From Mesoterricola sediminis (GTDB taxonomy: Bacteria > Acidobacteriota > Holophagae > Holophagales > Holophagaceae): DNA of 64,000 bases. The stretch is taken from contig NZ_AP027081.1 in the NCBI RefSeq assembly GCF_030295425.1, forward strand, positions 930,001 through 994,000, given 5' to 3'. The position numbers and the translations under genes are program-made. Below, in pieces: positions 3,956 through 16,366 of the stretch. The stretch's first letter is position 1, and each line of letters starts with the position of its first letter. The notes under the pieces were generated by a model, which was not told where the DNA came from, ran no database searches, and saw only the letters and a list, made by a program, of their open reading frames with translations.

Positions 3956-6418
3956 TCAGTCCTTGGCGGGGGCGGGGGCCGCAGGCTGGCTGCCTCCCCC
4001 GGCATAGGCGGGCCCCTTGGGATCGAGGATGCGCTCGATGCGGACCTTCAGGTCCTCCAGGTGGGCCCGGCTCAGGGGATCGCTGGCCGCGGGAATGCGG
4101 GCGGAGATCCGGGCAAGGAGGGTCTTGAACTCCATGCGGTAGGCGAGGCGGTTGTCGTTGGGATTGCCGCTGAGGGTGGCCATGTTGAGGCGCATGCCGA
4201 CCTGCTCCACGTAGGCCCGCTGGGCGTTGCGCCGCCAGAGGTCGATGCGGGGCGCCGGGGCTTTCAGTTCCGAAAAGAGGCCGTCCCGCAGGTCGGCCAG
4301 CATGGCGCCGGCGGTGTAGGCCTGGGGGCCTTCCAGGGCCATGTGGTCCTGCAGGCGCTCGGCCCGCCTCAGGAGATCCGAGAGGACGAGGATCTGGATG
4401 GACAGGACCTCCTGGAGGCCGCCGTCCGGGGCGATGCGGTTGTGGAGATCCCGGTCCAGGAGCCAGGTGGGCGTCCTGAAGAGCTGCTCGTCCAGGAAGC
4501 GGATCGCAGCCCGCTGGCGGTCCCGGCTGACCGGGGTGAAGCGGGGCCCGGGGCGCGCGCCGTGGAGGGGGACGCTGTCGAATCCCCCGACGAGCGCGGC
4601 CACATGCTTGATCTCGGCGTGGTACTGGGTCCAGACCCGGCGGTACATCTGTTTGAGGTCCTGGACGTCGCGGCCGGCCTTCAGGGTGGCCCCGGGGATC
4701 ATCGCCATCACCCGCTTGAGGTTCTTGATGCCGAGGGTGGACGCGAGCACCGGATCCTGGTCGCCCACGGCCTCGGTCTCCTCGCCGGGATCGGTCTCCC
4801 GGGTATCCGGGGTGGAGAAGCGCAGCCAGGGGGTGGCTTCCTGGGGGCGGCACCAGGCGTCCAGGGTGGGGGCCTCGGCCTGGGGCGTGGTCGCCCCGGG
4901 CACCGGCGCGTAGCCCCAGTGGATGGCGAAGCGGTCGTAGGGGCCGATGCGCGGGATGAGGAGGGCGGGCGGGATCCCGTCCTCGGGCTGGACCAGGTAA
5001 TTGAAACGGGCGTAGTCCATGATGGACGGGGTGTGGCCCATCTCCTCCAGCCAGGCGCGGTCCCGCAGCTTCTCCGCGGGGTAGGTGGCGCTCGCCTTGA
5101 AGTTGTGCTGGAGGCCCAGGGAATGGCCCACCTCGTGGCAGACCACGTAGCGCACCAACTCGCCCATGAGCTCGTCGGGCAGGGGCAGGGTCCGGGCCCG
5201 GGGATCCAGGGGACCCACCTGGGTGAAGTACCATTCCGTGACCAGCTTGACGATGTTGGAATAGATCTCCACGTCCGCCACGAGGATCTCGCCGCTGCGG
5301 GGATCGACGGTGCGGGGGCCCCGGGCGTTGGGGGTCGTGGAGGGGACCCAGCGGATCACCGAGTAGCGGACGTCCTCCGGGGACCACGCGGGGTCGGCCG
5401 GGGCCTCCAGACAGCGGATGGCGTGGACGAATCCCGCCGCCTCGAAGGCGGGCGCCCAGGCTTCCACCGCCTGCTTGACGTAGGGGACCAGGGCGGCGGG
5501 GGTCGCCGGGTCCACGTACCAGGTGATGGGCTTGATGGGCTCGCTCCGCGCGGCGGCCGGGTCCTTCTTCTCCAGGCGCCAGCGGGAGATGATGTCGCGG
5601 GTCCGGACGCCCATGGCGGTGTCGGCGAAATCGGTGACGGAATGGCTGAAGAAGCCCACCCGCTCGTCCCGGAAGCGGGCCTGCATGGGCGTCTCCGGCA
5701 GCTTGGCCAGGGCATAGTGGACCAGGGCCGTCCGGGGCATCTCGGGGGGCGCCTGGCCGGGCTTGAAGCTGCCGCCGGCGCCGCCGTAGCCGAAGGTCTG
5801 GGTGACCTCCACGTTGAGGTTGGCGGGGAAGACGGCGGTCTTCTCGACGAAGGTCCGGCCGGGATCCAGGGCTCCGGCCGTCAGCGTCTTCTTCACTGGG
5901 ATCTCGGCGATGTCGGTGGTGAAGAGCCGGGTGAGGTCCACCACGGGTTCGCCGTCGGCACCGAAGGCCTCCACGGGCAGGGCGAGGAGGATGGGGTCGG
6001 TGTTGAGCGCCTCCACGGCCTGGGCGAAGGGCGTGGCGGGGTCGCTGAGGGTGGGGTAGAGGGAGAGCCTCGCCAGGACCTTGTGCTCGCGGAGCTCGAA
6101 GCGCAGCACCTGGCTGCAGACCTCCTGGCCGGGGAAGGCCGTGGTCCCCGCGGGGGTGCGCTTGAACCGGACGCTGAGGAGGAAGTCCTTGCCGAGCTGG
6201 GCCCGGGGGATCTCCGCCAGGATCCGCCCCCGGAGCGTGTGGATCCGGAAGACGCCGGCCTGGGTGCGGTAGTCGGGCGTGACGACCTTCGCGTAGGGCT
6301 TGGGTTCGGCCTCGCCGGGCCGGAGTGCGGGGGGCGCCTCGGGCGCTGGCTTGGGGGCCTCCGGGGACTGGGCGGCGAGCAGGGCCGGCAGGGGGAGCAG
6401 ATGCAGGGGCGTTCTCAT
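3956..6418 (-). CDS. Secreted zinc-dependent metalloprotease (DUF5117/DUF4953 type)
   Basis: The 820-residue protein begins with a short signal-like segment (LHLLPLPALLAAQ) and so is probably periplasmic or secreted. The zinc site HEVGHSLGLQH is at residues 428-438, with His428, Glu429, His432 and His438 in the extended metzincin arrangement HExGHxxGxxH. The N-terminal half, with strands such as RIHTLRGRILAEIP and FGYGGAGGSF, and the long C-terminal helical part agree with the large DUF5117/DUF4953 metalloproteases of Bacteroidota and Acidobacteriota. It lies 28 bases downstream of an outer-membrane protein and a TonB receptor. This suggests that the cluster degrades a protein or peptide substrate and takes up the products. 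That role is inferred. Confidence 0.88.
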   Translation of the reverse strand: MRTPLHLLPLPALLAAQSPEAPKPAPEAPPALRPGEAEPKPYAKVVTPDYRTQAGVFRIHTLRGRILAEIPRAQLGKDFLLSVRFKRTPAGTTAFPGQEVCSQVLRFELREHKVLARLSLYPTLSDPATPFAQAVEALNTDPILLALPVEAFGADGEPVVDLTRLFTTDIAEIPVKKTLTAGALDPGRTFVEKTAVFPANLNVEVTQTFGYGGAGGSFKPGQAPPEMPRTALVHYALAKLPETPMQARFRDERVGFFSHSVTDFADTAMGVRTRDIISRWRLEKKDPAAARSEPIKPITWYVDPATPAALVPYVKQAVEAWAPAFEAAGFVHAIRCLEAPADPAWSPEDVRYSVIRWVPSTTPNARGPRTVDPRSGEILVADVEIYSNIVKLVTEWYFTQVGPLDPRARTLPLPDELMGELVRYVVCHEVGHSLGLQHNFKASATYPAEKLRDRAWLEEMGHTPSIMDYARFNYLVQPEDGIPPALLIPRIGPYDRFAIHWGYAPVPGATTPQAEAPTLDAWCRPQEATPWLRFSTPDTRETDPGEETEAVGDQDPVLASTLGIKNLKRVMAMIPGATLKAGRDVQDLKQMYRRVWTQYHAEIKHVAALVGGFDSVPLHGARPGPRFTPVSRDRQRAAIRFLDEQLFRTPTWLLDRDLHNRIAPDGGLQEVLSIQILVLSDLLRRAERLQDHMALEGPQAYTAGAMLADLRDGLFSELKAPAPRIDLWRRNAQRAYVEQVGMRLNMATLSGNPNDNRLAYRMEFKTLLARISARIPAASDPLSRAHLEDLKVRIERILDPKGPAYAGGGSQPAAPAPAKD

Positions 6419-7302: not shown

Positions 7303-10300
7303 TCAGAACGTGAGGCCGAAGGTGACTTCACCGGCCCGCCGAGAGAGGCTGGAGATGTAGGTGAGGCCGGCGGAGCTCCCCTCGCCGCGGCTGCCGACGG
7401 GCACCTTGTTGCTGGGGCTGTAGGCCCGGAGCAGGGTGCCCTGGGGCCCCATGTAGTAGCCCGAGTCGCCGGTGATGGGGTAGGGGGGATTGAAGACGCT
7501 CTGGTTGAAGATGTTCAGGATCCGGACGCTGCCGGTGAGGCAGGCCTTGCCCACGCCCAGGGGGGCCCGGAAGCCCACCTTGAAGTTCCAGAGGGAATAG
7601 GACTCGCTGGTGGCGTGGAAGGAGGTGCTGTCCCCGTAGATCCGGCTATAGGTCCCGTTGGTGATGTTCTCGATGCCGTAGGGGCTGGCCGCGGCGGTCA
7701 TGGAGGGCCAGATGGCGTAGTAGGTCGAGCTGCGGCCCGGGGCGTTGTACGAGCTGCCGGGGATGATGTTGGGCAGGTAGTAGTTGCCGTTGAGTCCGAA
7801 GGTGACCGTGCCGGTGAGCACGGGGACGACGTAGCCGAAGCCCAGGCTGATGTTGCGGGTCTCGCTCTGGAGGCCCTTGGTGACGTACTGGTCCTCGTTG
7901 GCCGCGGTCAGGCCGTTGAGGGCCTTCACGTAGGCGTAGTTGTAGACGTCGGAGAAGTTCTTGTCGATGGCCTTGCGGCTCAGGGTGACGGTCCCCATCC
8001 AGAAGAGCCTGGGCGTCAGGTTCTGGTTCCAGCCCATCTCGAGGGTGTCGTAGGTGGTGTGGAAGGGGCTGCTCGTCCAGTAGATGTTCTGCATGTAGGC
8101 GGACTTGCCCGCGCCGCCCAGGGGATTGGCGGACTGGGAGTAGAAGTCGAGCTTCCCGGTGTCGACGTAGGAGTTCCACTCCTTCCGGTAGACCTTCCTG
8201 GCCAGGGAGATGCGCACGCTGCCGTTCGTGATCGCCCGGGTGTAGTTGAGGGTGACTTCGTCGGCGAAGGGGACTTCCAGGTTGAGCAGCTTGTTGCGGG
8301 TGACGTCGTTCTTCCAGCTGATGGCGTTGGTGGTGTCCCAGTTGGCGGGGTTGAGGAGGTCCGCGTAGGTCACGAACTTCACGTACTGGGAAGCGTCGGT
8401 GATGGGGGTCCCGGCGGTGGGGACCGCCTGGCCGGAGACGCCCTTCCAGCCCACGAGCACCGCGTTGTTGTAGGGGCTCGCGGACAGGCCGCCGCTGCCG
8501 AAGAAACCGACCGCGAATTCCTGGGAGTAGCGGGCCAGGGTGACGCTGAAGTACTGGCGGCCGTCGCCGGTGGGATCGAACTTCACCATCAGGCGGGGGT
8601 CGAGCCGCGACATGTTGTCGATGCGGAGCCCCGAGTTGCCCACGGCGCTGAAGATGTTGTAGCGGAGGCCCAGCATGACGTGGAGCCGCTTGCTGAGGGT
8701 CCAGCCGTCGTTGACGTAGATCCCGGTGGCGCGGGTGCGCCCGCGCTCGGGGCTGACCGTCCCGATGAGCTTCAGGGGGGCGGGCCCGATGGGGAGGTTC
8801 CAGGTGCTTCCGACGCCGCTGTAGACGTCGCCCCACGTGGTGGTGTTGCCGTAGCTGTTCACGCCCGACCAGGCCATGGTGGGGAAGAGGTAGGCCGAGG
8901 CGTCCAGGGCGCTCTTCGAGGTGTCGCGGTAGTAGCCGCCGGTGTAGATGATCTCGTTGGCGGAGCCGAAGTTCTGGCTGGAGGAATCGTAGTTCTGGAC
9001 GGTGTCGAATCCCACGTCGATGTCGTGGGTCCCCTTGAACTCGAGGTACCAGCGCAGGTTGCCGTCCATCTTCTTGACGCCGCTGCCCTCGGGCCAGTTG
9101 GGGTTGGTGGAGCGGAGCACGGACGCGTAGCCCAGGGAGTTCTGCAGGTCCGTGGTGCCGAGGGTGGGGCTGTAGCGCGAGGCGAAGGCGGCGATGACCG
9201 AGACCGGGTTGTCGGTGGGGCCCGCGTAGGCCAGCCGCTCCCGGTCCGTCCTGGTCAGGTTGAATTCCGCGGAGAGCCGGGAGCCGAGGATGGCCTTCCA
9301 GCCCAGGTTCCAGCCCTTGCTGTTGGCGTTGGTGCTGCCCACCATCTCGCGGTTCAGCGCGCCGGCGGGGGAGCCCATGGTGGTGGTCTTGGTGCGGAAC
9401 ATGGCCAGGGAGACGACGTGGTTCTCGGCCACCGCGGCGGTGATCTTCAGGTCCTGCTGGGAGGTCCGGGTGCGGGCGGCGTAGGTGTAGCCCGCGTCCA
9501 TGAGGTCCGTGCCCCCGGCCACGTAGGCGCCCCCGGGGCCGGCCGCCAGGTAGTTGTCGATGGCGGCGCTGGCCCGGGTGGCGTTCCCCGCCGTCGACGT
9601 GAGGGTCCACAGGGGGGAGGAGCCGCCGTAGGTGGACCAGATGCCCTGCTGGCGCGCCAGGTCCCGGAGGTTCCCATAGGTCCCGTTGCCCGAATCGGGG
9701 GTGATCTTCCCGGACAGGAAGAACCAGACCCGGTCCCGGATGATGGGGCCGCCCAGGGTCCAGTTGTAGGTCCGGGTCAGGTCGTCGGAGTAGTTGAGGC
9801 CGAGGGCGCCCGCGGAATTGGCGAACAGGTTGGAGCCGTGCCGGTTGGAATCCCAGGAGGGGCGGCTGGCGTTGATGGTGAGGGACCCGATGAGCTGGTT
9901 GGAGCCCGACTTGGTGACGGTGTTCACGGTGCCGCCGAGCACACGGCCGTAGCGGGCGTGCATGGGCGAGAGCACCACCTGGATCTCCTCGATGGCCTCG
10001 GGGACCGTCTGGTAGAGGGCCATGTTGCTCTTGGGGTCCCGCGTCTCGATGCCGTTGAGGGTGTAGCCGGTGTTCCAGCTGCCGCGCATGCCCTCGCTGG
10101 TGTAGCCGGGGGTGAGGGCCAGGGCGCTGTCCGCCGTTCGCTCCACGGCGAGCATCTGCATGGTCTCCATGGGGAGGTTGGTGGAGACCGTGGGGTTCTC
10201 GATGGCCTCCAGGGTCTCCCCGGTGCTGATGACCTCGACCTTGGCGCCCACCTGGGCGATGGGCGCGAGCTTGAAGTTGGTTTCCGCTTCCGCGCCGATG

Positions 10301-10593
10301 CCCACGCGGACCCCGTGGGCGGTCTTGCCCAGGAAGTCGGGGGCGCTCACCGTGAGGGTGTAGGTGCTGACCGGAAGGAGGGGGGCGCGGTAGCGGCCCT
10401 TCGCATCGGTGGTGACGACGCGGACGCCGATCATTTCGGGCGCCTGGAGGGAGATCCGGGCCCCCTTGACGGGCCTCCCCTCGGTGTCGGTGACGGTGCC
10501 GGACAGGTTGCCCGTGGTGGCCTGGGCCATCAGCTGGCCGCCGGCGGCGAGGGCGAAGGCGAGGGTACCCCGCCTGAACAGGAGCTTGGACAT
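7303..10593 (-). CDS. TonB-dependent receptor with carboxypeptidase-regulatory-like N-terminus
   Basis: This 1096-residue outer-membrane receptor has a signal peptide (FRRGTLAFALAAGGQLMAQA). A carboxypeptidase-regulatory-like Ig fold follows at about 25-110 (GNLSGTVTDTEGRPVKGARI). Next comes a plug with GYTLNGIETRDP and RVLGGTVNTVTKSGSN near 160-225, then a long beta-barrel ending in EVTFGLTF. Such Oar-like receptors are common in Acidobacteriota and import bulky substrates using TonB energy. The ATG at 10593 follows the upstream barrel gene by 26 bases. Together with the two barrel proteins and the metalloprotease it forms one apparent uptake operon. The substrate is not evident. Confidence 0.92.
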   Translation of the reverse strand: MSKLLFRRGTLAFALAAGGQLMAQATTGNLSGTVTDTEGRPVKGARISLQAPEMIGVRVVTTDAKGRYRAPLLPVSTYTLTVSAPDFLGKTAHGVRVGIGAEAETNFKLAPIAQVGAKVEVISTGETLEAIENPTVSTNLPMETMQMLAVERTADSALALTPGYTSEGMRGSWNTGYTLNGIETRDPKSNMALYQTVPEAIEEIQVVLSPMHARYGRVLGGTVNTVTKSGSNQLIGSLTINASRPSWDSNRHGSNLFANSAGALGLNYSDDLTRTYNWTLGGPIIRDRVWFFLSGKITPDSGNGTYGNLRDLARQQGIWSTYGGSSPLWTLTSTAGNATRASAAIDNYLAAGPGGAYVAGGTDLMDAGYTYAARTRTSQQDLKITAAVAENHVVSLAMFRTKTTTMGSPAGALNREMVGSTNANSKGWNLGWKAILGSRLSAEFNLTRTDRERLAYAGPTDNPVSVIAAFASRYSPTLGTTDLQNSLGYASVLRSTNPNWPEGSGVKKMDGNLRWYLEFKGTHDIDVGFDTVQNYDSSSQNFGSANEIIYTGGYYRDTSKSALDASAYLFPTMAWSGVNSYGNTTTWGDVYSGVGSTWNLPIGPAPLKLIGTVSPERGRTRATGIYVNDGWTLSKRLHVMLGLRYNIFSAVGNSGLRIDNMSRLDPRLMVKFDPTGDGRQYFSVTLARYSQEFAVGFFGSGGLSASPYNNAVLVGWKGVSGQAVPTAGTPITDASQYVKFVTYADLLNPANWDTTNAISWKNDVTRNKLLNLEVPFADEVTLNYTRAITNGSVRISLARKVYRKEWNSYVDTGKLDFYSQSANPLGGAGKSAYMQNIYWTSSPFHTTYDTLEMGWNQNLTPRLFWMGTVTLSRKAIDKNFSDVYNYAYVKALNGLTAANEDQYVTKGLQSETRNISLGFGYVVPVLTGTVTFGLNGNYYLPNIIPGSSYNAPGRSSTYYAIWPSMTAAASPYGIENITNGTYSRIYGDSTSFHATSESYSLWNFKVGFRAPLGVGKACLTGSVRILNIFNQSVFNPPYPITGDSGYYMGPQGTLLRAYSPSNKVPVGSRGEGSSAGLTYISSLSRRAGEVTFGLTF

Positions 10594-10619: not shown

Positions 10620-11474
10620 CTAGAAGTGGTAGGAGAAACCCACTTCGAGATGGGGGGCGATCTGCTGCCGGGTGTCGACGTGGTCGGCCGGGAACCCGTT
10701 GGGGGCGGCCATCATGCCGATGGCCCGGGGCGTGGAACCGCTGTCCTTGGCCAGGGTGTAGGTGCCTGATCCGGTGACGTGCACGTAGTTGAGGCTCTGG
10801 TAGCGCAGGAGCACGAGGTTGAGCTCGAAGCGGGTGTCGGGCAGCCATTCCGTGCTCAGGCCGATGTACGGGGAGAGGGGCACCTGGTGGCTCTTCTGGG
10901 CGTACCAGTAGTTGTCCCGCCAGCTCCCGGGCTGGGGCGAGGTGCTGGTCACCATGCCCCAGGGCTTGGACATGATGTCGCCCCGCACCTCATGCTTGAA
11001 CTGGGCCCCGCCGATCTGCAGGCCCGCGTGCCAGCCCCGGGCCTTGCCCAGGAAGGGGAAGGTGCCCTCGTACCAGGCGCGGACGGAAAGGCCTTCCAGG
11101 TAGTTGACCCGGGCGTCGGAGGCTCCGTAGGTGCGGTCGATGGGATTCGGGGCCACCTGGGCGGCGACGCCGGTGGAGGGATTCACCCAGGTGAGGGTGG
11201 CGGGCGGATCCTTGATCGTCTCCAGGTAGTAGTTGCCGGGCTTGTAGGCGTAGCCCACCTCCACCCCGAGGCGGCCCGGAAGGGGGAGGGCGAAGGTGGC
11301 GCCGAAGCCCAGGCCGATGGCGTTGCGCTGGAGGTTGTTGGGCTGGGCGAGGGCGAAGCCCACCCGGCCCCGCACCTCGAAGGAGATGGCCGGCGCCTTC
11401 TCGGCGGCCGCCGCCCCGGGGCCCGCCAGGATCAGGCAGCCCAGGACAAGGGAGGTCAAGGGGAAATGGCTCAT
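10620..11474 (-). CDS. Outer-membrane beta-barrel protein, first gene of the receptor cluster
   Basis: A 284-residue protein with signal peptide (LTSLVLGCLILAGPGAAAAE). Amphipathic strands such as FEVRGRVGFALAQ, GLGFGATFALPL and LGVEVGYAYKPG follow, and the end HLEVGFSYHF has a terminal aromatic residue. It is therefore an outer-membrane barrel. It is the first gene after a 167-base gap that follows the MocR regulator on the same strand. That gap carries two direct repeats, and the CGAGGAT ribosome site lies before the ATG. Function is unknown; its place just before the TonB receptor suggests a partner in the same uptake pathway. Confidence 0.75.
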   Translation of the reverse strand: MSHFPLTSLVLGCLILAGPGAAAAEKAPAISFEVRGRVGFALAQPNNLQRNAIGLGFGATFALPLPGRLGVEVGYAYKPGNYYLETIKDPPATLTWVNPSTGVAAQVAPNPIDRTYGASDARVNYLEGLSVRAWYEGTFPFLGKARGWHAGLQIGGAQFKHEVRGDIMSKPWGMVTSTSPQPGSWRDNYWYAQKSHQVPLSPYIGLSTEWLPDTRFELNLVLLRYQSLNYVHVTGSGTYTLAKDSGSTPRAIGMMAAPNGFPADHVDTRQQIAPHLEVGFSYHF

Positions 11475-11592
11475 GGGTATCCTCGGAGGGTGACCGGGCG
11501 GTGGGCGCCGGGAGCGGAAACGGGGCACGGGAAGCCGGAATCGGGAAAGACGGGAACGGAATCGACCTTCCCGCCATTTGACGGGTTTGCCA

Positions 11593-11624
11593 TCAACCGG
11601 TCCCGAGATGGCGGCTCAACCGGT
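11593..11624. promoter_or_regulatory. Direct-repeat operator candidate upstream of the receptor cluster
   Basis: TCAACCGGT occurs at 11593-11601 and again at 11616-11624, 23 bases apart and in the same orientation, about two helical turns. MocR/PdxR-type regulators characteristically bind direct repeats, and a MocR gene lies immediately upstream. The second copy extends to the palindrome AACCGGTT, also found upstream of the maltodextrin operon, so a LacI-type protein is an alternative binder. Confidence 0.5.
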
Positions 11625-11641
11625 TTGGGGGCCGCCTGGGT

Positions 11642-13099
11642 TCAGCGGGAACGGCCCAGGGCGGCCTTGAGCCGTGTCACGGCCGAAGCCAGTTCCTCCT
11701 CGGTGGCCTGGGAGAACCCCATGCGGAAGGCGGGCGCCGGCTCGCCCAGGAAGAACTGGTCCGGCGGGTGCAAGCGCAGGCCGAGGTCCCGGGCCCGGCG
11801 GAGCCAGGCCGCCAGGTCCACGCCCGGCGCGGCGCGCAGCCAGAGCCCGAGGCCGCCCGTGGGGACGGCCACCTCCAGTTGCCCGCCGAGCTCCTCCTGG
11901 AGCCGGCCGCAGAGCAGGTCGCGGCGCCCTTCGTAGATCCGGCGCGTGCGCCGGAGGTGGGCCCCCAGCTCCCCGTCCCGGATGAGGTCGGCCACGGCCC
12001 GCTCGGTGGGAGCGTCCCCCAGGTCCTGGGGGCGCTTGATCCGGGCGAGGAGGGGCACCAGGGCGGCGGGAACCACCAGGTAGCCCAACCGGAGGCCCGG
12101 AGTCAGGAGACGGGAGAGGGAGCCCAGGTGGATCACCTGCCCGGTCCGGTCCAGGGCGAGCAGGGACTCGGGACGCGGATCCCCGTAGGCGAATTCCCCG
12201 TCGTAGTCGTCCTCGAGGATGGCCACCCGGTGGGAGGCCGCGAGGGCGAGGAGGGCCTCGGCCCGGGGGCGGGAGAGGCTCACCGCGGTGGGGAACTGGC
12301 GGCGGGGCGTCAGGTAGAGGAGGCGCACCGGGCCCTGGGCCAGCAAGGCCGCCAGGGCTTCGGTGTCCAGGCCCTCGGCGTCCACGGGCAGGGGACGGAG
12401 GGTCAGGTGCCCCGCCGCCAGGAAGATGTCCCAGGCGGCCCGGTTCCCCGGGGATTCGACGCCCACCACGGCCTGCTTCCGGAAGAGGGTGGCCACGAGC
12501 ATCGCCAGGGCCGCTCTGCTGCCCCGGGTGATCAGGACCCGGTCGGGGGAGACCGCCAGGCCGTGGCGCTCCCCCACCCAGCCCGCCACCGCCTCCCGGA
12601 GGATGGGGTGCCCCAGGGGGTCCTGGCCCCGGAGGAGGGCGGGGGCGTGGTGGCGGAGCGCCCGCTGGTAGGCCCGGGAAAGTTCCTGGGCCGGGGCCAG
12701 GCGGGGGTCCGGCGTGCCATCGGCCAGGAACAGGGTGGTGGGATCGGGGACGGAGGCGGGCAGGAGGAAGCTGGGCAGGTCGAAGCCCACCCCCGTCTCC
12801 CGCGCCGAAGCCACCGTCCGGGCCTGGGAGGGGAGCTCCAGGGCCACGAAGGTCCCGCGGCTGGGCTCCGTGACCAGCCATCCCTGGTCCACCAGCTCGT
12901 TGAGGGCGGGGATCACCGTGTGGCGGTTCACGCCCAGCAGGGTGGCCAGGGCCCGGGAGCCGGGCAGGACGGTGCCGGGACGGAGGCGCCCCTCCAGGAT
13001 GGCCTTGATCACCGTCTGGACCACCCGCTGGACGAGGGTGGCCCCCGGCCCCGCCTCCAGGGTGAGCCGGAGGGGTTCGGGACGCAGGCGGCCGGTCAT
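11642..13099 (-). CDS. MocR/PdxR-type regulator (GntR HTH plus aminotransferase-like domain) lacking the PLP lysine
   Basis: The 485-residue protein has an N-terminal GntR winged helix (about 22-88: QTVIKAILEGRLRPGTVLPG, then LLGVNRHTVIPALNEL and SRGTFVA). A fold-type-I aminotransferase domain follows, with EDDYDGEFAYGDP at 296-308. In this family the motif GTFSKxLxPxLRLG carries the lysine that binds pyridoxal phosphate. Here it reads GSLSRLLTPGLRLG, with Arg330 (codon CGT, 12110-12112) in the lysine position. It therefore probably cannot form the internal aldimine and may sense a free amine, another ligand, or nothing. Its start overlaps the kinase stop in ATGA, so translation of the two is coupled. 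Confidence 0.9.
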   Translation of the reverse strand: MTGRLRPEPLRLTLEAGPGATLVQRVVQTVIKAILEGRLRPGTVLPGSRALATLLGVNRHTVIPALNELVDQGWLVTEPSRGTFVALELPSQARTVASARETGVGFDLPSFLLPASVPDPTTLFLADGTPDPRLAPAQELSRAYQRALRHHAPALLRGQDPLGHPILREAVAGWVGERHGLAVSPDRVLITRGSRAALAMLVATLFRKQAVVGVESPGNRAAWDIFLAAGHLTLRPLPVDAEGLDTEALAALLAQGPVRLLYLTPRRQFPTAVSLSRPRAEALLALAASHRVAILEDDYDGEFAYGDPRPESLLALDRTGQVIHLGSLSRLLTPGLRLGYLVVPAALVPLLARIKRPQDLGDAPTERAVADLIRDGELGAHLRRTRRIYEGRRDLLCGRLQEELGGQLEVAVPTGGLGLWLRAAPGVDLAAWLRRARDLGLRLHPPDQFFLGEPAPAFRMGFSQATEEELASAVTRLKAALGRSR

Positions 13100-16000
13100 G
13101 GCCGCCCCCCGCCGTTGGCCCGCATTTGCGCCCGGGCGACCAAAGGCGCCACGGCCCGCGCCAGGTGGAGGTTCCGTTCGACGGCCTCCCGGAAGGCCGC
13201 CCGGGCCTGGGCGGCCAGGGTCCGGCCGCCTCCCGGTTCCTGCTCGGCCAGGGCCAACAGCAGCTCGCCCCGGAGCACCCAGATCCGGGCGGACAGGAAG
13301 GGGCCCTGGACGCCGCCGGTGGCCTTGTGGGGGGTGCCCCCGCGCCGCGCGTCCCGGGTGGGGGGGCCGTAGGTGGCCAGGGCCCGGGCGCAGGCCCGCA
13401 GCCCCGCCTCGTAGGCCGCGGTCCGGCCCGATCGGGACGCCCGGCCCAGGAGGAGCTCCAATTCGGCCAGGCCCGCCTCCAGCTCCGCCCGGCCCGTGGT
13501 CCGGCCCCGGTCCAGGCGGGCCTGGAGCCAGGGGACCAGACCCGCGAGGGCGGGCCGTGGATCGCGGCCCGCTTGGAGATCATGCCGGCCCACCGCCAGG
13601 CGACCCCGGAGGTAGGCCAGGCAGGCTGTCAGGCTGTGGGGGGTCTCCAGCATGGCCGGTTCCTGGCGGGCCAGGACCGCGGCCAGGGCCGACCAGGCGC
13701 TGGCGGTCCCCAGGGCCAGCGCCTGCTCTCGGCGGAGGTCCGTCTCGCTGGGCAGCTCTGGCGCGGTGGCCGGGGTGCGGCGCTGGAGGATGGCTTCGGC
13801 CTCGGCCAGGCTGGGGGCCGCATCCTCGCCCTGGAGGCGGGCCCATTCGGCCCGGGTGAGGGCGAGCTTGAATCCGGCCTGCCAGGGGATGGGCCGGATC
13901 CCGGCTTGGCGGACGGCCATCCCCAGGGCAAATCGGGCGTCCTGGCCCGTTTCCATCTGGAACTGGGCATTGACCAGCCACCAATAGGCATCCGGCAGGT
14001 CCTCCGCGCCGACGGTGGCGAACAGGCCCGCCAGGTCGAAGGGCAGGCGCAGGTCGTAGGCCCCGGCCGCCCGCAGTGCCAGGGGTTGCCAGGGGGCGAC
14101 CATCCGCAGGATGGCCCGGTCGGGATGGGCCACGGCGTCCGTGAACCGGGCGGTCAACTCCCGGACCTCGGCCCCGGGCGCCTCGCCCAGGGCCAGGCGG
14201 AGGTTCAGGGCCCGCACCTGGTGGCGGATGCGGAGGCGCCACAGCTCCGGGTCCGCGGGCGAGACCGCGAGCCCCCCGTCCAGCCACCGCCGGGACTGGG
14301 CCAGGAGGGCGCGGCGGGCGGCGGGGGTCTGCCCCGGCAGGGCCTCCTGTTCCAGGACCCCTTCGGCGAGCCGCCGGTACACCTGGGGATGGCTGGGGGC
14401 GATCCGGAGGGCCGCCTGGAGCAGGGCCTCGGCCTCCGCCCAGGGGGTTGGCGCGCCTCCGGTGGGGCGGGCGTCCGGAGTCCGGGCCTCCCGCTTGGCC
14501 TCGTCCCGGGCCACGGCGACCAGCACATCCGCTTCCTCCAGCAGGGCGTCCAGCTCGTGGGGGAACCGCGCCCGGTAGGCCCGGGCCAGCCGGAGCAGGG
14601 TCGCCCGGTCCCCGGCGTCCACCTGGGCGACCTCCAGCAGGTGCTGCAGGCGGGTCTGGTCCTCGCTGCCCCGCCCCACGAGCATGGCCCGGGCGGGTTC
14701 CAGGAAGCGCGCGCGGGCCTCGGCCCGGAGCGTGGCCGCCTTGGCGGCGTCCGGGTGGGCCCCGGCGGCGGCCACGGCCTTGCGGTACTCCTGCAGAAGG
14801 GCCAGCGAGAGCCAGTTCCGCGCGAGTTCCGTGTGCAGGCCCAGCCTCCAGGCCGTGCGGAACGCCTCCAGGGCCTCCGGGTCCTCGGGGTCGAGGAGGT
14901 AGCGGGCCTGGCCGAGGGCCAAGTGTCCGGGGGCCTGGGCGGCGCGGCCCTGCCGGGCCATCTCCTGGCGGATGCCGTCCCGCATGGCCCGGGCCTCGGC
15001 CAGGTCCAGGTCGATGGTGTGGGGGGGCAGGCGGTAGGTGCGGTCCAGGTGGCGCCGCAGGGTCTCCACCCGCTTCACGAAATGGGTGTCCCATTCGGCC
15101 TGCTCGGCGGTGTAGGCCACCCGGGCCAGGACCAGGCCGCCGCCCGCGGCCAGGACGAGGGCCCCCAGCCCCACGCCCCAGGCCAACCGCCGATGGCGAC
15201 GCCCCCACTGGGTCAGCCGGTAGCTCCACCCCCCGCCCATGGCCTCCACCGGCTCGTGGCGCAGGAACCGGCCCAGGTCCTCGGCCAGGGCCCGGGCGCT
15301 GGGGTAGCGGTCCCGGGGGTCCCGCGCCAGGCAGCGCTCCACGATGCGGCCGAGGTCCTCCGCCAGGTCCGGCCGCCGCTGGGCGAGGGGGATCCGCTGG
15401 CCGGCCCGGATGGCCTCCAGGAGGCCCTCCAGATCCGTGGCGACGAACGGCATGACGCCGGCCAGGAGGACATAGAGCAGGACGCCGAGGGCGTACACGT
15501 CGCTGCGGGCGCTGAGGAGGGTCGGGTCCCCGGTCAGCTGTTCAGGGCTCGTATAGGGCGGCGTGCCCATGGGGCAGGGGCCTCCGGCGCGACGGCCCGT
15601 CCGCACCATGCCGAAATCCCCCACCACCGGGCGGAAGGTCCCGTCCTCCCGGCGCTGGAGCAGGACATTGCCCAGCTTCAGGTCCAGGTGCACGAGGCCG
15701 CGCGCGTGGGCGGCATGCACGCCCAGGGCCAGTTCCCGCACCAGGTCCAGCTTCCGGGGGAGGTCCAGGGCCGGGCCCGCCTGGGCCAGGGTGGGGCCGT
15801 CCACCAGCTCCATGACGATGTAGCCCTTGCCGGCCTCGTAGATCCGGCACACGTTGGGGTGCTCCACCTGGGCCTGGGCCCGGGCCTCCCGGAGCACGGG
15901 GGAACCCTCGGCCTTGAGGACCTTCAGGGCCACCCATCGCTCCAGGAGGCTGTCCCAGGCCCGCCAGACCCGGGCGGAGGAACCCTCGCCCAGCAGGTTG

Positions 16001-16239
16001 GTCTGCTGGAACCGACCGCCCAGTTCGGGCAGCGGGTGGAGCAGGGCGCCGTCGGGAGCCGCCGGGTCGCTCCAGGAACCGGCCTCCACGCTCCCCACGT
16101 CCTCCAGGCCCTCGAGGCAGGAAGCCCAGAGTTCGGCGCCGGGCAGGGGCGCGCCCGCCCCGGGGGCCGGGTGGACGGCCTCAGGGACAGGGGGCGTGGG
16201 GCCGGTGGCCAGGGGCCTGGCCGGCTGCGGGTCGGACAT
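13096..16239 (-). CDS. Membrane-anchored Ser/Thr protein kinase with TPR-like C-terminal region
   Basis: The 1047-residue protein has a Pro/Ala-rich N-terminus and then a Hanks-type kinase domain at about 77-330. Visible motifs are the glycine loop GEGSSARVW (84-92), ATP lysine in VALKV (Lys106), catalytic loop HLDLKLGN (184-191), DFG at 208-210, and GTPPYTSPEQL. The usual HRD arginine is leucine, making it a non-RD type. One transmembrane helix follows (about 353-376). The remaining roughly 650 residues are Ala/Leu/Arg-rich helical repeats resembling TPRs, probably periplasmic. The ATG at 16239 was chosen; a TTG 22 codons upstream (16305) is in frame but has no ribosome site. The last bases overlap the MocR start. 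Confidence 0.88.
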   Translation of the reverse strand: MSDPQPARPLATGPTPPVPEAVHPAPGAGAPLPGAELWASCLEGLEDVGSVEAGSWSDPAAPDGALLHPLPELGGRFQQTNLLGEGSSARVWRAWDSLLERWVALKVLKAEGSPVLREARAQAQVEHPNVCRIYEAGKGYIVMELVDGPTLAQAGPALDLPRKLDLVRELALGVHAAHARGLVHLDLKLGNVLLQRREDGTFRPVVGDFGMVRTGRRAGGPCPMGTPPYTSPEQLTGDPTLLSARSDVYALGVLLYVLLAGVMPFVATDLEGLLEAIRAGQRIPLAQRRPDLAEDLGRIVERCLARDPRDRYPSARALAEDLGRFLRHEPVEAMGGGWSYRLTQWGRRHRRLAWGVGLGALVLAAGGGLVLARVAYTAEQAEWDTHFVKRVETLRRHLDRTYRLPPHTIDLDLAEARAMRDGIRQEMARQGRAAQAPGHLALGQARYLLDPEDPEALEAFRTAWRLGLHTELARNWLSLALLQEYRKAVAAAGAHPDAAKAATLRAEARARFLEPARAMLVGRGSEDQTRLQHLLEVAQVDAGDRATLLRLARAYRARFPHELDALLEEADVLVAVARDEAKREARTPDARPTGGAPTPWAEAEALLQAALRIAPSHPQVYRRLAEGVLEQEALPGQTPAARRALLAQSRRWLDGGLAVSPADPELWRLRIRHQVRALNLRLALGEAPGAEVRELTARFTDAVAHPDRAILRMVAPWQPLALRAAGAYDLRLPFDLAGLFATVGAEDLPDAYWWLVNAQFQMETGQDARFALGMAVRQAGIRPIPWQAGFKLALTRAEWARLQGEDAAPSLAEAEAILQRRTPATAPELPSETDLRREQALALGTASAWSALAAVLARQEPAMLETPHSLTACLAYLRGRLAVGRHDLQAGRDPRPALAGLVPWLQARLDRGRTTGRAELEAGLAELELLLGRASRSGRTAAYEAGLRACARALATYGPPTRDARRGGTPHKATGGVQGPFLSARIWVLRGELLLALAEQEPGGGRTLAAQARAAFREAVERNLHLARAVAPLVARAQMRANGGGRP

Positions 16240-16366
16240 GGGGAGCTCGAGCGGCGGCGCGGACGCCGCGTGGGACGCGGGTTCCGCGGGGGCGGGGCGT
16301 GTCAAGGAAGGGCGGGGGCCCTGGGCGAACAGGGGACGAAACGGCAGGCGCGGCCCTCGGCCGGGC

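Follow-up and report, generated by a model that had tools for sequence, protein, structure and literature searches.

The window analysed here, a stretch of 64,000 nucleotides from Mesoterricola sediminis, encodes on its minus strand a MocR-type regulator of 485 amino acids (positions 11642..13099). The protein joins an N-terminal GntR-type winged helix-turn-helix domain (PF00392, residues 23-85, 59.7 bits against a cut-off of 27) to a fold-type-I aminotransferase-like domain (PF00155, Aminotran_1_2, residues 142-477, 86.3 bits), both recognised with Pfam. Upstream in the same operon lies the gene of a Ser/Thr protein kinase (13096..16305, minus strand), whose TGA stop codon overlaps the ATG of the regulator in the motif ATGA; this stop/start overlap of 4 nt argues for translational coupling of kinase and regulator. 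The kinase domain covers residues 100-340 (Pkinase, E-value 4.4e-30), and the protein features one predicted membrane helix near residue 378 and a long C-terminal part. Downstream of the regulator, on the same strand, are the gene of a 302-aa protein which has no Pfam or NCBIfam match (10620..11528), that of a TonB-dependent-receptor-like outer-membrane protein with CarboxypepD_reg and OMP_b-brl_4 domains (7303..10593) and, further downstream, that of a Met-zincin with DUF4953, DUF5117 and DUF5118 (3956..6418). The first of these is a possible target of the regulator, and the receptor gene may also be under its control.

An earlier description of this stretch, drawn from its letters only and hereafter called the sequence-only reading, proposed the open reading frame 11642-13099, which proves to be real and lies on the minus strand, left unstated there. 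The kinase gene, which overlaps the regulator by 4 nt and is conserved with it, was absent from that description. The interval 11475-11641, which it put forward for footprinting, is located 3' of the regulator gene and is not its own promoter; it spans the space up to the next gene on the minus strand and could therefore contain the promoter of a target. The regulator's own promoter should be upstream of the kinase reading frame, which starts near 16305.

The central observation of the sequence-only reading, arginine in place of the PLP-binding lysine, holds. Codon 330 (12110..12112, minus strand) is CGT in GSLSRLLTPGLRLG, the minus strand from 12124 to 12104 reading GGC TCC CTC TCC CGT CTC CTG, and alignments with PDB structures place Arg330 opposite Lys312 of GabR, i.e. 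opposite the Schiff-base lysine of that regulator and of aminotransferases. CGT differs from the lysine codons AAA and AAG at all three bases. An AlphaFold2 model, computed from an alignment of the window protein with 45 GTDB relatives, reached a mean pLDDT of 89.7 and a pTM of 0.74, with weak regions mainly at the ends and in the interdomain linker. Its best PDB match was full-length GabR (Foldseek rank 1), and aminotransferases were matched as well. As far as the model can tell, the fold of the regulator is intact and the PLP lysine is gone. The further remark of the sequence-only reading that the rest of the fold looks intact is thus borne out. The pocket is more altered than described there, the GabR Tyr205 position being Asn and the His248 position Arg.

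The substitution is old and fixed in its lineage. Clade A, defined as the window protein and the 12 relatives nearest to it (47-59% identity; same genus and family), had a support of 100 in the first tree and of 99 in the second. Lysine in close relatives, which the sequence-only reading had considered, was not encountered, as all 12 carry arginine and the residue is thus shared by 13/13 members. It is encoded by CGC in seven, CGT in four and CGG in two, and canonical members of the family use AAG or AAA in 28/28 cases. On a broader scale, lysine was found in 44/45 named GTDB relatives aligned with the window protein (alignment A1) and arginine in one (L053). A recent mutation or a sequencing error at codon 330 is ruled out by the clade-wide arginine with its mixed codons, and a pseudogene by the full-length frame, the pLDDT of the model and the low dN/dS of close pairs. 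For the two clade-A pairs with the least divergence, dN/dS was 0.19 in one and 0.22 in the other. NG86 ratios were higher in more distant pairs, up to 0.70 among the eight listed, but these values are untrustworthy, since such pairs are at roughly 0.6 synonymous changes per site and their proteins are far diverged. Since the PLP lysine is replaced throughout the clade, the window protein counts as a MocR in its architecture and ancestry, but not as a canonical, PLP-dependent member of the group. Sporadic arginine at this position was also seen elsewhere in otherwise canonical MocR proteins (L053 from Granulicella, L049 from Atopococcus, and L282), with flanks free of kinase genes.

Loss of the lysine extends across the bacterial family to which the window belongs. 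A first census, from which 10 hit rows interrupted by an in-frame stop within the extended hit and all proteins shorter than 300 aa had been removed, gave a tree of 109/182 proteins (Lys 48, Arg 35, Gln 22, His 3, Pro 1). A second census comprised 141 distinct MocR proteins of the family from 140 loci, which stood at the top of hit lists and are thus not a random sample; among these proteins the PLP lysine is missing in 74, spread over several clades (Lys 67, Arg 36, Gln 32, His 4, Pro 2), and lysine and aspartate are both kept in only 33. Arginine occupies the lysine column in clade B (15 proteins), where the pocket Asp and Tyr are lost, and in clade D (5), where Asp is retained. Clade C (32) has Gln in 31 cases and Pro in one, together with loss of the equivalents of GabR Asp279, Tyr281 and the phosphate arginine, while in clade E (27) Lys is retained and Asp and Tyr are lost. 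Parsimony on the second tree, which holds 139/141 proteins, requires at least four changes at the lysine. The genome of the window alone encodes six MocR proteins at E<1e-30, four of which lack the lysine. Clade C, with dN/dS of 0.04-0.11 in its eight closest pairs, is the clearest candidate for a PLP-free MocR; it was observed as an orthologous MocR across much of the family (e.g. L167:8556-10058, L191-L198 and, in part, L267-L277).

The second conserved feature of clade A is the kinase. To detect kinase domains near MocR genes, an HMM was derived from five of these kinases, and a gene was called ORF-adjacent at a distance of no more than 150 bp. By this measure 13/13 clade-A loci have a kinase domain within 4 kb, and in 12/13 it is ORF-adjacent. 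ORF-adjacent kinases were further counted in clades A2 (2/2), D (3/5), B (7/15), E (24/27, the three misses being near contig ends) and C (0/32). Among the canonical Lys/Asp/Tyr MocR proteins of the family, 0/28 have a kinase within 4 kb (0/22 with full 4-kb flanks), and among other Lys/Asp types the count was 1/5. Outside the family, the fetched flank contained a kinase at 1/80 named GTDB MocR loci (L027). The window's genome has 21 kinases in 4.5 Mb; within 4 kb of one lie 4/4 of its MocR genes without the lysine, and two lysine-bearing MocR loci have none in stretches of 11 kb. Inspected by eye, nine kinases of this genome away from these loci showed no MocR gene beside them. Adjacency is rejected as a general rule for lysine-less MocR proteins, in view of clade C and of the 8/15 clade-B loci that have no ORF-adjacent kinase.

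Several arrangements were observed besides those counted above. Many clade-C loci have a kinase 1.7-3.2 kb upstream on the opposite strand. Seven clade-B loci (L159, L162, L163, L176, L177, L181 and L189) combine an arginine-bearing MocR with an adjoining or nearby kinase made of TPR and a C-terminal Ser/Thr kinase domain, and have a relative of DUF4382-type lipoproteins nearby; a FadL-like outer-membrane protein is close to some. At L145:8717-15123, a single kinase gene sits between a lysine-bearing MocR upstream (L145_13657) and a clade-A arginine MocR downstream. In the window's genome, L320:3936-6908 features a TPR-like and kinase gene by an outer-membrane-protein gene, a neighbourhood resembling that of clade B in which no MocR was seen.

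The lysine, H-x-D-x-K-x-x-N and DFG motifs are intact in 72/83 kinase domains (HRD/HLD patterns), several of the listed misses being cut by stretch ends, and by these motifs the kinases appear catalytically competent. Their architectures differ between clades. Those of A, D and E combine an N-terminal kinase domain and a predicted membrane helix with a long C-terminal part, in which TPR was called at cut-off for the L171 kinase and not for that of the window. B kinases are composed of TPR and a C-terminal kinase domain, A2 kinases carry a WD40-like part, and C kinases combine HAMP with the kinase domain. In the kinase tree the partners of A and D group together, as do those of E; the partners of B, A2 and C are placed elsewhere, with unpaired kinases of the window's genome in between.

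Distances among MocR proteins and among their kinase domains are strongly correlated (r=0.97, 42 pairs). Furthermore, within clade A, of which three genomes carry either two or three paralogous pairs, the actual partners gave the highest correlation among 24 within-genome swaps (0.923, the next reaching 0.891). Such co-variation fits dedicated partners; joint duplication of the pairs would give the same. Kinase adjacency was registered for 55/86 proteins with pocket loss versus 1/27 of the others, in a trait test of the 113/139 proteins that had either complete 4-kb flanks or a detected kinase; the corresponding Fisher p of 1.3e-8 ignores relatedness and is no valid test. The phylogenetically independent comparison, with three parsimony changes for pocket loss, offers two to three independent pairs, too few for significance. 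Gene adjacency alone does not show phosphorylation. No Ser, Thr or Tyr position common to all kinase-linked MocR proteins appeared at the 85% level. Within clade A, Ser110 (13/13) and Ser91 (12/13) are candidate phosphosites in or near the linker and are rare in canonical members. Upstream of the clade-A kinases, a search for a shared operator motif gave nothing convincing, with no k-mer of at least nine bases in more than 8/13 regions, and neither a consensus promoter nor a terminator was found.

The reading that best accommodates these observations, at a probability of roughly 0.5, is that the window protein is a transcription factor of MocR architecture in which the PLP Schiff base is lost for good and which acts as the DNA-binding output of the Ser/Thr kinase of its own operon. 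Characterised lysine variants bear on what such a protein requires. EnuR Lys302His is presented in the available part of PMC8739950 as a constitutive repressor, and the accessible text of PMC10790758 reports MpaR K314A as inactive, with no expression of the target. As both mutants are unresponsive, a natural MocR devoid of the lysine and kept under purifying selection must depend either on a different pocket chemistry or on a different input, and for such an input the conserved kinase readily suggests itself. Under this reading, a signal would be sensed by the membrane kinase via its C-terminal region. The kinase would then control the regulator, most simply by phosphorylation, possibly at Ser91 and Ser110, and thereby switch its binding at the promoters of the neighbouring outer-membrane receptor genes; relatives of the TonB-receptor-like protein occur in 11/13 clade-A stretches. 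The altered, arginine-rich pocket may be kept as a structural element or a non-covalent ligand site. We infer all four of the functional partnership, the phosphorylation, the target genes and the absence of bound PLP. Taken together, the data suggest that, across a group of related bacteria, a regulator whose relatives respond to metabolites by means of vitamin B6 was converted into a switch linked to a kinase.

The state of the pocket gives rise to the main alternatives. The first holds that a B6 vitamer is bound without a Schiff base, as PMP, PNP or PLP held through Asp297, Tyr299, Ser327 and Arg337 and with Arg330 close to the aldehyde, so that the protein reports the vitamer state and not amines, the kinase being a separate or additional input. 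Codons 297-299 (Asp, Asp, Tyr; 12203..12211 on the minus strand, computed from the ORF start) are kept in 13/13 clade-A proteins; Asp297 corresponds to GabR Asp279, which binds the pyridine nitrogen, and Tyr299 to GabR Tyr281. Phe269 (GabR Phe250) and Ser327 are likewise invariant, and the phosphate-arginine position 337 is Arg in nine and Lys in four. The invariance of Asp297, Tyr299, Phe269 and Ser327 suggests that something still binds in the pocket, and it leaves room for both proposals of the sequence-only reading, a new ligand and PLP held without a Schiff base. However, codon 219 (12443..12445, minus strand), which the PDB alignment maps to the PLP-stacking GabR Tyr205, encodes Asn in the window protein and in clade A as a whole Asn in 12 cases and His in one, whereas this position is Tyr or Phe in 39/45 named relatives. 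Moreover, Asp297 and Tyr299 are lost in the lysine-less clades B and C, which indicates a trend away from B6 binding, and Asp is lost in clade E as well. A nearby lysine acting as the PLP binder, another option raised in the sequence-only reading, is unlikely, as none of the four lysines of the window protein (32, 208, 355 and 478) is kept as Lys across the clade. EnuR Lys302His is, moreover, described as unable to bind PLP in the available part of PMC8739950. Overall, binding of a vitamer without a Schiff base is rather unlikely.

The second alternative is a pocket rebuilt for a new anionic ligand, perhaps a phosphorylated or carboxylate metabolite, which the protein would sense as a one-component system, the operon kinase being merely co-regulated. 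The GABA ligands of GabR, Arg207 and Arg430, are not conserved in clade A. Besides Arg330, arginines were gained at positions 192, 195, 220, 266 and 267, each in at least 12/13 clade-A proteins; the prevailing residues of canonical members at these positions are Gly, Gln, Pro, His and His, respectively. Nevertheless, four lysine-bearing canonical members also carry the arginines at 192, 195 and 220, so these do not track the loss of the lysine, and the co-variation with the kinase is left unexplained. This makes a new small-molecule sensor an unlikely outcome. It is very improbable that the aminotransferase domain is a relic serving as dimerisation scaffold, with Arg330 filling the PLP site (e.g. 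paired with Asp297) in one fixed conformation of a constitutive operon autoregulator: the EnuR and MpaR mutants, in the accounts available, do behave as locked or inactive forms, but the invariant pocket residues and the low dN/dS of close pairs speak against a dead pocket, and the kinase pairing would have no reason.

The kinase-output reading can be extended to the whole family, in which a B6-dependent one-component regulator would have been turned into an output of Ser/Thr kinases, several clades having shed the PLP lysine, the aspartate or the stacking aromatic in the company of kinases of at least three architectures, as an aminotransferase-fold analogue of the kinase-response-regulator pair. 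This extension is put forward tentatively. In the open-licence full-text literature, no report was found of MocR proteins lacking the lysine or paired with kinases; the passages available describe them as regulators that carry PLP on a conserved lysine. A natural and conserved set from multiple clades makes the role of the aminotransferase fold in a regulator devoid of cofactor chemistry directly testable. If the link to the kinase is functional, it would represent a new wiring of Ser/Thr kinases to transcription, in which a ligand sensor is converted into a phospho-signalling output. Annotation pipelines, for their part, are warned that not every protein of this kind is PLP-dependent.

Among known systems, GabR of Bacillus subtilis shares with the window protein the two-domain architecture and the fold over the whole chain, with equivalents of Asp279, Tyr281 and Phe250 and of the arginine which we take to be Arg319. 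It differs in that GabR Lys312, Tyr205, Arg207 and Arg430 are replaced by Arg330, Asn219, Ala221 and Gln448. GabR residue numbers, mapped via the PDB alignment, follow the available section of PMC6677901, which calls Asp279 and Lys312 conserved across all the MocR clusters studied there; clade A falls outside that description. The PdxR-type MocR family (NF052282) is the best NCBIfam match, over nearly the full length, but the score of 302.2 bits is under the curated cut-off of 320, and no pyridoxine genes are among the annotated neighbours of the regulator. The action of a bacterial Ser/Thr kinase on a GntR-family regulator has parallels in Ser41 of Streptococcus suis GntR and in FadR, which the excerpts available do not describe as MocR proteins. 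EnuR Lys302His and MpaR Lys314Ala, as portrayed in the accessible parts of their reports, are likewise MocR proteins without the PLP lysine; those are laboratory changes which lock or inactivate the regulator, whereas the loss in the clade of the window is natural and conserved.
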